Of a stretch of DNA of 20,317 nucleotides, positions 784 through 10,173 are shown piece by piece (the stretch's first letter is position 1; every line of letters begins with the position of its first letter). Made by a program: the position numbers and the translations under genes. Source of the DNA: a virus; the IMG/VR virus record IMGVR_UViG_3300020578_006155, positions 1 through 20,317 of that record; one strand, written 5' to 3'. Under the pieces are notes generated by a model, which worked only from the letters and a program-made list of their open reading frames with translations, was not told the origin of the DNA and searched no databases.

Positions 784-818
784 AAAAAATTAAAGGGATA
801 ATAATTGTATCCCTTTTT
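784..818 (-). terminator. Rho-independent terminator of the tmRNA
   Basis: On the minus strand AAGGGATA and TATCCCTT form an 8-bp stem with a 7-nt loop, followed by TAATTTTTT. It begins immediately after the tmRNA 3' CCA and ends at the start of the YkgJ-like gene. Confidence 0.75.
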
Positions 819-1238
819 TGGTGGAGATGGCGAGGGTCGAACTCGCGTCTTACAATATTAAAATAAACAGACTACACGTTTATTCGATTGGTTCTCAACC
901 GACAAATAGAGAGTTCTTTTTTTCCACTAGAACTTACAACTGTGGTCGGTTCCTATTAAATCGGAATGAACCGAAAACACCTCCTGACAAATTTTCTGAA
1001 CTTAATCACGTGGTATTTGTCAAACCTCATGGACTTCTGTTCCTAGGTATTTGTCCTTACCGACCCGACGTTGTCGAAACTATTAAGCTCCAACAACAGC
1101 TTCCTCAGCCACAAGACCGAGAACAGCCATTTTAGCAAAAGTATTGCCAGTTATAATTCGAATCAGTTTTCAAGGAGTTAATTCAGCTCCTACGTGCCTG
1201 CGTACCTTAACTATTGCAATCAAAGCCAAGGCATCCCC
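819..1238 (-). ncRNA. ssrA: tmRNA (transfer-messenger RNA) with extended tag frame
   Basis: This is a 420-nt one-piece tmRNA read on the minus strand. The 5' end GGGGATG (1238 downward) pairs with CATCTCC next to a genomically encoded ACCA, giving a 7-bp acceptor stem with a CCA end at 819-821. A T-arm GCGAG-TTCGACC-CTCGC is present. Helix H2 forms between TTGCAATA (1219-1212) and TATTGTAA (857-850), and TTAA/TTAA extends it past a bulged G. By alignment with the remembered Bacteroides pattern (AACTGGC then the tag), the resume codon is GGC at 1148-1146. The tag frame runs 1148-1086 (21 codons), begins GNTFAKMAV and ends AVVGA. It is followed by tandem stops TAA and TAG. GTTGT in the last tag codons pairs with ACAAC after the stops, so the stops sit in the loop expected of helix 5. 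A candidate PK1 uses GGAG/CTCC plus GAAT/ATTC. The RNA rescues stalled ribosomes and tags the nascent chain. The tag is longer than the usual roughly 9-codon Bacteroidetes frame and lacks the -LAA/-AA end. Confidence 0.96.
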
Positions 1239-1257
1239 ATATTTTCAAAGAACATTA

Positions 1258-1287
1258 CAAATGTAGGTATAAATATTTTATTTTCAA
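1258..1287 (-). promoter_or_regulatory. Host-type promoter of the tmRNA (TTG-N19-TACATTTG)
   Basis: On the minus strand TTG (1287-1285) is separated by 19 nt from TACATTTG (1265-1258). This is a full match to the Bacteroidetes housekeeping consensus TTG-N17-20-TAnnTTTG. Transcription would begin about 10-15 nt before the mature tmRNA 5' end at 1238, leaving a short leader for RNase P to remove. TATTTATA (1275-1268) lies inside the spacer and may be a second, late signal. Confidence 0.6.
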
Positions 1288-1292
1288 ACTTG

Positions 1293-2356: not shown

Positions 2357-3193
2357 ATGGATTACAATTTTGAGCTATTGAAAGAAGTTTTATCTGTTCC
2401 AACCACAACCTATAAGGAGGATTTGATGATTAAATTTTTGGAAAATTGGTTAACAGAAAAAAACATATTACACTACAAAGACGAGTATGGTAACGTATAC
2501 GCTACAAAAAAAACTTGTGAAGTTTCTGACGATTTTTTTTATCCTTGTGTTATTTCTCATACTGATACTGTTCACGGACTTAACCGTATAAATGTTCATG
2601 AGGAAAAACTGTTAAATGCCCAAGGTGAACTAAAATTAGCACTCAAAGCTTACAACGACAAAGGCGGACCTACTGGAATTGGTGGTGATGATAAATGTGG
2701 TGTTTACGCATGTTTGACACTGCTCGAACAAGTACCTTTTTTGAAGGCAGCATTTTTTGTTTCTGAAGAAACAGGGTGTCACGGTTCAAGAAAAGCCGAC
2801 AAAGATTTTTTCAACGACGTTGGTTATGCAATTCAATTTGATGCTCCGGAAAATTGGATGGTTACAGAAAAATGTTTTGGTCACGTTTTATTTGATAGGG
2901 ATAGTAATTTTTTCAAAAGTTGTGACAAAGTTCTCAAAGAAGGAATGAATCAATCTGATATGCAATACATGGTTCATCCCTACACAGATGTTTATGCTCT
3001 CAGAAGTCAATTCGATTTTTCTTGTATCAATTTCTCGATTGGATATTATGATTACCATTCCGAAAATGAATATGTTGTTGTTGAGGATGTTTATAATGGA
3101 ATCAATATGGGAAAAAAGATGATTGAAAAATTAGGTTACATCAGACACTTTAAAAAATCTTCAACAGAGGCCGAGCGATATGTCTTATATTAA
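2357..3193 (+). CDS. M20-family zinc metallopeptidase (PepT/aminopeptidase-like)
   Basis: The 278-aa protein carries the full di-zinc ligand pattern of the M20 family in order: H68 and D70 in SHTDTVHG, D111 in GIGGDDKCG, E137/E138 in SEETGCHGS, D162 in QFDAPE, and H234 in YDYHSENEYV. The family cleaves amino acids or short peptides, as in peptidase T. At 278 aa it is shorter than the roughly 400-aa bacterial PepT, so the lid/dimerisation domain is likely missing or reduced. There is no signal peptide, so it acts in the cytoplasm, where it could trim peptides released by Clp proteolysis (inference). It is convergent with the zinc-ribbon metalloprotein, overlapping it by 9 bp. A host-type promoter lies directly upstream. 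Confidence 0.85.
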   Translation: MDYNFELLKEVLSVPTTTYKEDLMIKFLENWLTEKNILHYKDEYGNVYATKKTCEVSDDFFYPCVISHTDTVHGLNRINVHEEKLLNAQGELKLALKAYNDKGGPTGIGGDDKCGVYACLTLLEQVPFLKAAFFVSEETGCHGSRKADKDFFNDVGYAIQFDAPENWMVTEKCFGHVLFDRDSNFFKSCDKVLKEGMNQSDMQYMVHPYTDVYALRSQFDFSCINFSIGYYDYHSENEYVVVEDVYNGINMGKKMIEKLGYIRHFKKSSTEAERYVLY

Positions 3194-3937
3194 GTTTTCC
3201 AACTTTTGGATATAAGGTTGGACCATTGGGTGGTCTTGAATATCTGTAAATTCAATTCCCTGTGATTTCATATTCTTGATTGTTCTGATTATATTTTCCA
3301 AGCTAGATTTGACGGCTAAAGAAGCTTGTGGGTAATTCTTTATAAATTCTGATAACTTGAATATTGTCCTCGCATCTTCAATTGGGATATCTAATTTTCG
3401 AATAATTGACCCAACCATATTTTTTGCAAATTGGTCTGCGTCTAACTCCATTTCCCAATATTGTTTGTAGAGAGATTCAAAATCATTCAAATCAAACTCT
3501 GTCAATGGGTTTGGCATTTTGATTTCAGATATTTGTTGTTCATGTCTGATTTCATGAAATAGAGTATAAAGGAAATCCCCAAAAGTAGACATGTGATTTG
3601 GTGCACAGACGATAACTTGGTCCCTCGTTCTTACACCAGAGTAGGTAGTGCAAGCGTTCAAAAATTTGACTCTATATCCTGATTCATTGATATAATTCTC
3701 AACAAATTTCTTTATCAAAGCAATTTTACTCCTTTGTTTAGCGGGAAAAGAAGATTCGAATTTTTCTAATACTCTATCAAAATTAGATGGTTTCGGTTTA
3801 TTGTCGTATCCACATTTATGACAAATGTATGGGTCATTACCACCTTGGGAAAGTTTCCAAGTCCATCCACAATTATCACAAATTACGTTACCGTCCTTAA
3901 TTTCCTCTGAGATTAATTTTTTTATCAAGTTTCTCAC
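3185..3937 (-). CDS. Zinc-ribbon plus HExxH metallopeptidase-like protein
   Basis: The 250-aa protein starts with GTG at 3937; no in-frame ATG lies upstream of it. Residues 20-42 form a zinc ribbon (CDNCGW ... ICHKCGYDN, with C20, C23, C39 and C42). Residues 128-132 are HEIRH, a gluzincin-type HExxH motif, and WEMELDADQFA (161-171) supplies a likely third ligand (E164). The layout resembles IrrE/ImmA-like peptidases, where HExxH is followed by an E..A..FA helix, but the similarity is only at motif level. The substrate is unknown. TATTTATC lies 3 nt before the GTG, and the clpC terminator lies just before that, so the gene is a separate unit. Its end overlaps the M20 gene by 9 bp. Confidence 0.75.
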   Translation of the reverse strand: MRNLIKKLISEEIKDGNVICDNCGWTWKLSQGGNDPYICHKCGYDNKPKPSNFDRVLEKFESSFPAKQRSKIALIKKFVENYINESGYRVKFLNACTTYSGVRTRDQVIVCAPNHMSTFGDFLYTLFHEIRHEQQISEIKMPNPLTEFDLNDFESLYKQYWEMELDADQFAKNMVGSIIRKLDIPIEDARTIFKLSEFIKNYPQASLAVKSSLENIIRTIKNMKSQGIEFTDIQDHPMVQPYIQKLENLI

Positions 3938-6185: not shown

Positions 6186-6581
6186 ATGATTTTATCAAAC
6201 AACGAACTAAACAGAATTTTTGATGATATTCTTGGTGGTAATTCTAACTACAACTATAAAACCACTTTAATCACAAAAAAAGATGAAGGTGAAAATTATG
6301 AAATGAACCACACTTCAGATGGTGCATATCTTTTCTTCGAAGCACCTGGATTCAATAAAAACAACTTGAAGGTCGAAATGGAAGATGGTATGTTACACAT
6401 TGAAGGGAAAAGAACTTACAAACTGAATGGAAAAGAAAAAACAAGGACCATTTCCAAAGAATTTAAAATTGGAAAAGAATATGACCCATCTTTAGTTGAG
6501 GCAACAATTGAAGACGGACTCTTGACCGTTTTTGTTCCAAACTTTGAGAAAAAAGAAAAGAAAAGAATAAGTCTTCTTTAA
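6186..6581 (+). CDS. hsp20: Small heat-shock protein, Hsp20 / alpha-crystallin family
   Basis: The 131-aa protein has an alpha-crystallin domain at about residues 35-119. The domain includes DGAYLFFEAPGFNKNNLKVEMEDGMLHIEGKR-type strand order and the family hallmark IEDGLLTVFVP (108-118). An ISL tail motif (128-130) matches the I-x-I/L docking motif. The N-terminal arm is short. Small HSPs hold unfolding proteins for refolding. T4-like cyanophages carry homologues, so this class of gene is known in the group. It is divergent from the clpC-like unfoldase, and a sigma-54-like promoter with two upstream dyads precedes it. It probably protects or assists folding of phage proteins in infected, stressed cells (inference). 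Confidence 0.92.
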   Translation: MILSNNELNRIFDDILGGNSNYNYKTTLITKKDEGENYEMNHTSDGAYLFFEAPGFNKNNLKVEMEDGMLHIEGKRTYKLNGKEKTRTISKEFKIGKEYDPSLVEATIEDGLLTVFVPNFEKKEKKRISLL

Positions 6582-7546: not shown

Positions 7547-9139
7547 ATGAGTAATTTAAAAAAAATCCTTGATAGTTTTAAATTGAAAGATTCCCTAAAC
7601 CCCAAGGTTTGGGAAAATCCTAAAGACCCGAAAGAAGCTACCATGAAATCAAAAGTTAGAGAGGCTTTGATGAAGATTTCAGAGGAGTTTGTCGATGATT
7701 TAGGTGACGATGTTTTTGTGGAAGATGTTTTTCTAATGGGTTCACTTGCGAACTTCAATTGGTCGGAGTTTTCAGATTTTGATTTACACGTTATAGTGGA
7801 TACGGACAGATATGGAAAAGAAAAGGATTTATATGTCGAACTTTTTGATTTGAAGAAAAAACTTTTCAACTCCAAACATGACATCAAAATTTATGGATAT
7901 GATGTAGAGTTATATGCTCAAGGTTCAACTGATGAACATTATAGCGATGGAGTATTTTCTGTGTTCAATAACGAATGGGTTAACAGACCAACAAAAAAAA
8001 GACTTGATTTGAATATGTCTGTTTTGAAGGATAAGATTGAATGTTGGACAGAAAAAATTGACGACGCAATTGAAAATGCTAAAGAAACAAAGAATACAGA
8101 ACCATTGAAAAGACTAAAAGATAAGTTGAAAGACTATAGGCAATCTGGTTTAAGTCAGGAAGGAGAATTTTCCTATGAGAATTTGGTTTTTAAATATTTG
8201 AGAAGGTCTGGTCACATAGGTAAACTTTTTGATATAAAAAATAAAATGAAGGATAAAGAACTTTCCATCGAAAGAAAAATTACTGAACAAATTGATGAAC
8301 TAAAACCTAAAGACCTAATTTCAAAATCAACTTTTCTCTCATCATTGATGGACCTGATAGAAAATAGAGCAAAATTCGAGTATACTCCCGGACAGAAATT
8401 AATAAAAGATAAAGATGTGGTAAAAATTCAAGAAGCACTTCAATACTTGGGTTTTCTACTTCCAAAATACGGTGTCGACGGTAAATTTGGGGAAGAAACA
8501 AGGGGTGCTGTTATAGATTTTCAAGAGAAGTATGATTTGGATAAGACAGGAAAAGTGGATGACTCAAATCTAAAATTTTTAATAGCGGCTTTGATTGTAA
8601 AAGAATTCAATGATACAAAACTTTCGACAATTGAATATCAAGGAGAACCCACAGATGATAAATTTACATACTTAGATTTGAATGACCCAATCGGATACAC
8701 AACTTATAAAAAAATCTGCCAAGCATTTATTGATAGTAGAAATACAAACGCATTTGTGTCTGGTGATATGATGGCAAATTGTGCTAAAAAATATTTTTCA
8801 CAAGGATATATTCCACCTGAGTTAGCGTTAGCTCAACTTACTTTAGAGGGAGGTCTTTCTAAAGTTCTAACTGCAAAACCAATCAAAACAAAAAACCCAT
8901 TTAATGTTGGTAATACGGATTCAGGAAAGTTGAACTACCAAGATTCTTTTCAAGACGGTGTTTGCCTCTACTATGATTTGATGACAAAAAGTTATTTAAC
9001 CAAAGGAAAAACTGCAAAAGATTTACTACAAAACTTTGTAAATGTCAGGGGAAACAGATATGCATCCTCTGATGAATATGAACAAGACTTGGGGTCCTTG
9101 GTCAACTCGATAAAAAAAGTGACGGAACCTATTGCCTGA
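7547..9139 (+). CDS. Nucleotidyltransferase / peptidoglycan-binding / glucosaminidase-like fusion
   Basis: The 530-aa protein appears to have three domains. Residues about 35-245 hold a polymerase-beta-type nucleotidyltransferase fold: G65-S66 in FLMGSLANF, D77-x-D79 in SDFDLHV, and a third acidic residue at D119 or E121. Residues about 286-348 are a peptidoglycan-binding domain (VVKIQEALQYLGF ... DGKFGEETRGAVIDFQ). Residues about 390-525 look like a FlgJ/LytG-type glucosaminidase: ELALAQLTLEGG with E434 as candidate catalyst, then NPFNVGNTD, YYDLMTKSYL and NRYASSDEYEQDL. There is no signal peptide or transmembrane helix. It could be a virion-associated lysin, for example on the baseplate, or a cytoplasmic endolysin needing a holin. 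The N-terminal nucleotidyltransferase is unexpected for either role. Domain limits are by eye. Confidence 0.75.
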   Translation: MSNLKKILDSFKLKDSLNPKVWENPKDPKEATMKSKVREALMKISEEFVDDLGDDVFVEDVFLMGSLANFNWSEFSDFDLHVIVDTDRYGKEKDLYVELFDLKKKLFNSKHDIKIYGYDVELYAQGSTDEHYSDGVFSVFNNEWVNRPTKKRLDLNMSVLKDKIECWTEKIDDAIENAKETKNTEPLKRLKDKLKDYRQSGLSQEGEFSYENLVFKYLRRSGHIGKLFDIKNKMKDKELSIERKITEQIDELKPKDLISKSTFLSSLMDLIENRAKFEYTPGQKLIKDKDVVKIQEALQYLGFLLPKYGVDGKFGEETRGAVIDFQEKYDLDKTGKVDDSNLKFLIAALIVKEFNDTKLSTIEYQGEPTDDKFTYLDLNDPIGYTTYKKICQAFIDSRNTNAFVSGDMMANCAKKYFSQGYIPPELALAQLTLEGGLSKVLTAKPIKTKNPFNVGNTDSGKLNYQDSFQDGVCLYYDLMTKSYLTKGKTAKDLLQNFVNVRGNRYASSDEYEQDLGSLVNSIKKVTEPIA

Positions 9140-9183: not shown

Positions 9184-10173
9184 ATGGCTTTAGTTACATA
9201 TCTCATAGGTTCCTGTTCTGGCGGTCCAGCTATACTTGTTGACTTTGACAGTAGTAGTTTACCAGCAGTAAACGGTAACTATTATCTTACTTTTACAGGT
9301 GCAACAACTGAAGGTTGTTATGATATAATTGATAATGCTGAACCTGCAACAGGAGTTGATAAAGTAGCGACTTTATCTTCGGATTACGGAGATTGTGCAA
9401 CTTGTTTAGCTGTTGTCACTCCAACACCAACTGCAACAACCACACCAACTAAAACTCCAACGAATACACCAACACCAACTAAAACACCAACCAACACACC
9501 AACTAAAACACCAACTCAGACACAGACACCAACACCAAGCAACACACCAACTAAAACACCAACTAACACACCAACCAACACACCAACCAACACACCAACA
9601 AATACAAATACCCCAACACAAACTATTACACCTACTAATACCGCCTCAAATACACCAACCCCAAGTCAAACTCCAACGAATACACCAACAACAACTCAAA
9701 CCCCAACAAATACTCCGACAAACACCCCTACTAAAACACAAACTCAGACACCTACCAACACACCAACTAAAACACCAACTCCGACACCAACCCCTCCAGG
9801 ATTTTGGATTATTACAGATTGTGATGACACAGTCCGTATCGTAGATTTAGTAGGAATTTCTCCAACACTTGGACAGATGTATCTCTTACAGTTCAGTGGT
9901 GCAACCCCCTATGGTTGTTATTTTATCACTGACACAAGTTATGGACCATCTACAGACATCGGAGGTTCTTTAGGTGGACCGTACACCGACTGTGCTGAGT
10001 GTGGTCCATATTACACAGGTACATCTGTGAATGCATTCTATGAATCTGTTGGAACTTGTTGTGAAAGTGGGACAACTTTCAACTACCCACACCCTGAATA
10101 TGCGACAAACGGTGGAATCGCAATACAATTAAACGCAGTTGAAATTGGAGGATTCAATGGACTTAATAATTAA
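9184..10173 (+). CDS. Thr-Pro repeat protein with two related Cys domains (putative fibre or head-surface protein)
   Basis: The 329-aa protein has three parts. Residues about 7-74 and 208-273 are two diverged copies of one domain. Each has a [19 protein letters not shown]-like strand (second copy [20 protein letters not shown]) and a closing D-C-x-x-C (DCATC, DCAEC). Between them, residues about 80-205 are a low-complexity linker of [12 protein letters not shown] and TPTQTP units. The tail (274-329) has a CC pair and a [17 protein letters not shown] segment. Such PT-rich linkers are extended and are often found in exposed phage appendages. The first residues [12 protein letters not shown] are not a clear signal peptide. 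An exposed virion protein is inferred. An antisense frame and a +2 frame are also open across the repeat, an effect of its codon composition. Confidence 0.8.
9420..9797 (+). repeat. Thr-Pro coding tandem repeat
   Basis: The stretch is built from degenerate 6- and 12-nt units of the type ACACCAACTAAA / ACACCAACCAAC. It encodes the linker of the putative fibre protein. Exact runs such as ACACCAACCAAC repeated in tandem near 9565-9600 could change copy number by slippage. Confidence 0.9.

Follow-up and report, generated by a model that had tools for sequence, protein, structure and literature searches.

Why would a bacteriophage encode its own tmRNA, and what would become of the proteins that such an RNA tags? 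The question is raised by a tmRNA gene in the stretch of viral DNA analyzed here (the window), which is an entire virus record of 20,317 bases and a fragment of a larger genome. The window encodes a terminase (Pfam Terminase_6N), a portal protein (phrog_213), and a prohead protease (Peptidase_S77), all of the T4 type, in agreement with a preliminary description that had called the phage T4-like. The relatives of its terminase include contigs of 317–321 kb, and other relatives of the phage measure 304–326 kb; given these genes and genome sizes, we classify the window phage as a jumbo T4-like phage. It stands far from named phages, the terminase matches listed being less than 30% identical in every case, and a search of the INPHARED phages found no DNA relatives of the window. 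The host most likely belongs to the Bacteroidota, given that the ClpC-like protein of the phage is 55–60% identical to Bacteroidota ClpC and that the tmRNA gene is preceded by a promoter of the Bacteroidota type. In a 321-kb relative (G001, loci L659–L674), ARAGORN reports, besides the tmRNA, 24 tRNA genes, and these suffice for all 20 amino acids.

ARAGORN finds a single tmRNA in the window (1238..819), with the tag GNTFAKMAVLGLVAEEAVVGA followed by two stops, and the Rfam tmRNA model RF00023 aligns over exactly this span (102.6 bits, cut-off 47 bits, E 1.8e-39, model positions 1–374 of 374, not truncated). The agreement of the two programs bears out the earlier proposal of a complete tmRNA, for which no strand had been stated, and places it on the minus strand. 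The elements named in that proposal, namely the acceptor stem, encoded CCA, T-arm, resume codon (GGC), 21-codon tag frame, and tandem TAA TAG stops, are all present, as is the pseudoknot PK1 (table 1). The RNA thus fits RF00023 over its full length with an alanine-type tRNA-like domain (7-bp acceptor stem, G3-U70 pair, and T-arm), and its fold is 4.3 standard deviations better than those of dinucleotide shuffles.

Table 1. Features of the window bearing on the tmRNA and on its possible partners.
Feature	Position	Strand	Basis
Terminator-like hairpin with T run, downstream of the tmRNA	792..816	-	Sequence
tmRNA gene, 420 nt, one-piece, CCA encoded at 819-821	819..1238	-	ARAGORN; Rfam RF00023; fold z -4.3; 150 distinct relatives
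Acceptor stem, 3' strand	823..829	-	Pairing across relatives
T-arm	830..846	-	Pairing across relatives versus shuffles
Helix H5, contains the end of the tag and the stops	1070..1097	-	Pairs in the window sequence; Rfam alignment
Tandem stops TAA TAG	1080..1085	-	Sequence; ARAGORN
Tag reading frame, 21 codons, GNTFAKMAVLGLVAEEAVVGA	1086..1148	-	ARAGORN; relatives; pN/pS
Pseudoknot PK1	1160..1190	-	Modest pairing excess in relatives; Rfam alignment
Acceptor stem, 5' strand, including G3 of the G3-U70 pair	1232..1238	-	Pairing across 149 relatives
GTTCTTTGA leader adjoining the 5' end of the RNA	1245..1253	-	Similar element in relatives and hosts
Bacteroidota-type promoter TTTG-N19-TAcaTTTG	1258..1288	-	Pattern upstream of relatives
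M20/M42-type peptidase	2357..3193	+	Pfam/PHROG; tmRNA neighbor in most loci
Putative zinc metalloprotease, HEIRH motif	3185..3937	-	Sequence motif only
ClpC-like AAA+ unfoldase, 675 aa, no N-domain, GIGF ClpP-docking loop	3962..5989	-	Pfam; PHROG "ATP-dependent protease"; PDB ClpC match
Hsp20 small heat-shock chaperone	6186..6581	+	Pfam HSP20, E 3.8e-13

Comparison with related phages supports this structure. Relatives were collected through gene neighbors and a DNA pattern, followed by nhmmer and alignment; nhmmer recovered the tmRNA at ~150 loci of related phages, and the final set comprises 150 distinct tmRNA sequences. Of 149 sequences, 146 form all seven acceptor pairs and 148 retain G3-U70, the identity pair for alanine; acceptor pairs 4–7 covary. 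These figures come from re-registered sequences (36 alignment rows were one base out of register at the acceptor) and lean towards pairing, as for each sequence the 5' register that paired best among several offsets was chosen. Pairing in the T-arm reaches 97.8%, compared with 64.2% in shuffles, with double changes at all five pairs; in H2 it is 85.4%, compared with 68.2%. PK1 shows a modest pairing excess and is the one pseudoknot of four (PK1–PK4) that the relatives' alignment resolves. Covariation in H5 is weak on the relatives' alignment, perhaps owing to misalignment around indels. We considered whether the locus could be a pseudogene or a chance match, but the covariation, the selection on the tag described below, and the 150 relatives rule this out, and an origin as an integration-site remnant is unlikely because the complete gene persists across large T4-like genomes. 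Together, these observations strongly support the prediction of a working tmRNA whose tag would be translated. Directly downstream of the gene, positions 379–783 encode a cysteine-rich protein of 134 aa for which Pfam and PHROG return no matches.

The tag frame itself is conserved. An open frame of 20–22 codons occupies the same place in all 150 distinct tmRNA sequences, which together encode 92 distinct tags of 20–22 aa. An alignment in which the tag would be short and end in -AA, named in the preliminary description as the contrary reading, is supported neither by ARAGORN and Rfam nor by the 150 relatives. Among 95 distinct 21-codon tag DNAs, Gly11 of the tag is invariant, although encoded by three different codons, position 12 is Leu in 91, and the other two frames are open in only seven. 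For closely related pairs, the tag frame has a pN/pS of 0.46, versus 0.65 and 1.53 in the other two frames, and within the tag it is 0.39 for codons 1–13 and 0.59 for codons 14–21, all from pair counts that ignore shared ancestry; in codons 14–21, H5 may constrain the sequence as well. These patterns argue that the frame is under selection at the protein level, most strongly in codons 1–13. The conserved core of the tag is therefore internal and its C-terminus is freer, whereas ssrA tags usually show the reverse pattern, with conservation at the C-terminus. ARAGORN cuts or misses the tag in most tmRNAs of one large set of related loci (L275–L392), giving, for example, AEEATVVA instead of a 21-aa tag, and because standard annotation misses or shortens many such tags, the family is probably hidden in automatic annotation.

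We compared these tags with those of 30 Bacteroidota genomes, in which loci found by Rfam search yielded 26 ARAGORN calls. All but one of the host tags are 9–10 aa long and end in LAA (18 tags) or MAA (7 tags), as in GENNYALAA, DNTSYRLAA, and GNTSYAMAA; the exception, a 23-aa tag that ends in RCR, is apparently a misread. By contrast, neither ending occurs in any of the 92 distinct phage tags, whose last residue is Ala in 88, Ile in three, and Ser in one; the commonest ends are TVA, VAA, AVA, and VGA, the last of which is that of the window, and VVA also occurs. The claim that the phage tag is long and unlike those of the hosts thus holds well beyond the window. The phage RNA nevertheless belongs to the same family as the chromosomal one-piece ssrA of Bacteroidota and shares with it a Gly or Asp resume codon and a GNT- or DNT-type start, so that the phage tag opens like a host tag and then runs on for about 12 more residues. 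Many relatives have a tag starting GNTFAKMAA, similar to host tags such as GNTSYAMAA; we place no weight on this likeness, which is absent in other phage clades.

The likeness to the hosts extends to the region upstream of the gene, where host and phage genes share a promoter type and often a GTTCTTTGA leader. The pattern TTTG-N17–21-TAnnTTTG occurs upstream of the tmRNA in 73 of 140 relatives (0.5 expected), and a GTTCTTTGA-like element precedes 72 of 120 phage tmRNAs (1.8 expected) as well as several Bacteroidota host tmRNAs.

About 3 kb from the tmRNA, the window encodes a ClpC-like protein. Its sequence includes two AAA modules as well as a UVR motif; both pore-loop motifs are present, and so is an IGF loop of the type used for docking on ClpP. 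A pattern search for this docking loop (IGF, VGF, or MGF) picks out 128 of 129 relatives, and the last (L305) reads SIGF, which brings the count to 129 of 129. The best solved relative is ClpC (6em8, E 9e-219); given that the alignment begins only at ClpC residue 146, the N-domain is missing, and Pfam gives no Clp_N match. In a quick tree, 46 phage ClpC-like proteins form one group distinct from 30 Bacteroidota ClpC proteins (SH-aLRT 98). Some relatives show no ClpC-like match, and those relatives are fragments. Our knowledge of ClpP and SmpB comes from relatives, as a 20-kb fragment such as the window is too short to show either. ClpP is encoded by 13 of 15 large relatives and by three of 16 in a more distant and more fragmentary set, its Ser-His-Asp catalytic motifs are intact in sequence, and it matches PDB ClpP structures. 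By eye comparison of contig names, at least 35 of the best 80 ClpP contigs also carry a tmRNA of this family. In a 321-kb relative ClpP lies ~22 kb from the tmRNA, so the two do not form one operon, and in a 304-kb relative the tmRNA and the unfoldase are present and ClpP was not found. That this ClpP serves as the head protease is unlikely, given the S77 prohead protease of T4 type that these phages encode. Among the 15 large relatives, one encodes SmpB; the SmpB family comprises 28 viral contigs (L551–L578) of up to 322 kb, at least four of which carry this tmRNA.

Among the other genes of the window, the M20/M42-type peptidase could trim released peptides, and the putative zinc metalloprotease has no Pfam match. 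Elsewhere in the window, positions 7547–9139 encode a 530-aa protein in which a nucleotidyltransferase-like part is combined with a peptidoglycan-binding domain and one more part at the C-terminal end. Positions 9184–10173, in the structural gene region, encode a 329-aa protein that has an extended repeat tract rich in Thr and Pro (TPTNTPT type).

We hypothesize that the phage would transcribe its own tmRNA from the host-type promoter, that this RNA would be aminoacylated with alanine and delivered by SmpB (from the host or, in some relatives, from the phage itself), and that it would rescue ribosomes stalled during infection, appending the 21-aa tag to the unfinished protein. The tag would be a phage-specific degron, different from the LAA/MAA degron of the host, and would be read by the phage ClpC-like unfoldase that lacks an N-domain; the unfoldase would dock on ClpP (the phage's own in most large relatives, otherwise the host's), and the tagged protein would be destroyed. 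The tagging RNA is the well-supported part of this proposal and the assignment of the protease is circumstantial; we infer from the genes and patterns described above that the RNA is expressed, that it tags proteins in the cell, and that the phage protease recognizes the tag. Taken as a whole, phage-owned trans-translation with a tag feeding a phage ClpC–ClpP protease is, in our estimation, an even call. Somewhat more tentatively, we posit that tmRNA degron, ClpC-like unfoldase, ClpP, and sometimes SmpB make up a private tag-and-destroy pathway, through which rescue products would go to the phage protease and not to host ClpXP. If so, viruses would bring a protein-quality-control pathway of their own into infection, the presence of tmRNA genes in some phages would have a concrete explanation, and the pair of degron and unfoldase could serve as an orthogonal degradation tag.

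Alternatively, the phage tmRNA might merely supplement host trans-translation, with host ClpXP, Lon, or FtsH destroying the tagged proteins and the phage ClpC-like protein and ClpP serving assembly or host takeover. Many phage tags end in TVA, AVA, VVA, or VAA, and ssrA tags engineered to end in LVA or AAV are still degraded, the AAV variant through ClpXP (PMC11003136); by analogy, host ClpXP may still read phage ends of the TVA, AVA, or VAA type. Long non-LAA tags also need no phage protease, given that mycobacteriophage ErnieJ has one and no detected Clp genes, and ClpP lies ~20 kb from the tmRNA and does not share an operon with it. However, a tag that served the host proteases would be expected neither to lack LAA and MAA in all 92 cases where the hosts keep such ends, the window tag ending in VGA, nor to have its conservation peak in the internal core instead of at the C-terminus, and we consider this reading rather unlikely. 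The same evidence bears on the suggestion, made in the preliminary description, that the tag changes the fate of tagged proteins: an unfoldase with a docking loop and the ClpP of relatives could indeed receive them, but escape from ClpXP is not secure on the strength of a non-LAA end alone, since the LVA and AAV variants are degraded.

The tag might not be a degron at all, if ribosome rescue alone were selected or if the tag shielded or relocated its products, and that none of the phage tags has the host degron end would fit such a role. Yet its fixed length and conserved core indicate that the tag is not drifting, and the proteins of G001 (~320 kb) contain no peptide similar to it that would hint at a sorting signal, which also leaves unsupported the idea that the tag copies a head-targeting or other phage peptide; we regard a non-degron tag as quite improbable. 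Even further from what we observe is an RNA that acts as a decoy, titrating SmpB and blocking host trans-translation in the manner of the RNA of mycobacteriophage DS6A, which has only the tRNA-like domain. Expression of an RNA of that type is described as inhibitory to tmRNA (PMC4131195, citing Mao et al. 2009), but here both the mRNA-like part and the tag frame are intact and selected, and some relatives supply an SmpB of their own, so that a decoy would be very surprising.

Taken singly, tmRNAs (PMC4131195), tags that do not end in LAA, SmpB, and ClpP are all known from phages. Huge phages have been reported with a tmRNA and SmpB (Al-Shayeb 2020, PMC7162821), jumbo phages with ClpP (PMC7824862), and phage AP-J-162 with a tmRNA as well as Clp genes (PMC11242549); the portions of these three papers considered here describe no conserved phage tag and do not link tag and protease. 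Searches of open-access literature found no description of the family of 20–22-aa tags or of its pairing with a ClpC-like unfoldase lacking an N-domain and ClpP. The impression that the tag is new therefore stands for this tag family and not for non-LAA phage tags in general, which have precedents in ErnieJ and Bacillus phage G. ErnieJ, of the Bxz1 type, encodes a full tmRNA with a long (25 aa) tag, ATDTDATVTDAEIEAFFAEEAAALV, that ends in AALV; unlike the present phages, its tag is unrelated and neither a Clp ATPase nor ClpP was detected in its genome. Phage G has a tmRNA with the tag AKLNITNNELQVA, ending in QVA, as well as a phage ClpP and a Clp ATPase that adjoin each other at 187823–189600; it is an unrelated phage, however, its tag is 13 aa long, and its ATPase is by length (449 aa) of the short single-module type and not ClpC-like. 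Streptomyces phage Riptide has the ordinary tag ANSKFAFALAA and no detected Clp genes. Prevotella phage Lak-B1 has ClpP, a Clp ATPase, and a tmRNA missed by ARAGORN, whose tag, read by eye as DDEIEFRMAA, has a host-like MAA end. The 484-kb phage LR756508 (L393) has a divergent tmRNA for which the 8-aa tag given by ARAGORN looks wrong; by eye, its frame has about 35 codons and ends in PAAV. Phage tags that are long or do not end in LAA therefore occur elsewhere, as do phages with both a tmRNA and Clp genes, but the two are not strictly linked. A precedent for a long tag with its own protease is provided by Mesoplasma florum, in which an extended ssrA tag is read by a matched Lon and not by ClpXP (PMC9382460, PMC9097571). 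That system is bacterial, relies on Lon, has a tag that ends in NYAFA, and was demonstrated experimentally, whereas ours is drawn from sequence; what the two would have in common is a longer tag and, as proposed here for the phage, a matched protease in place of ClpXP.
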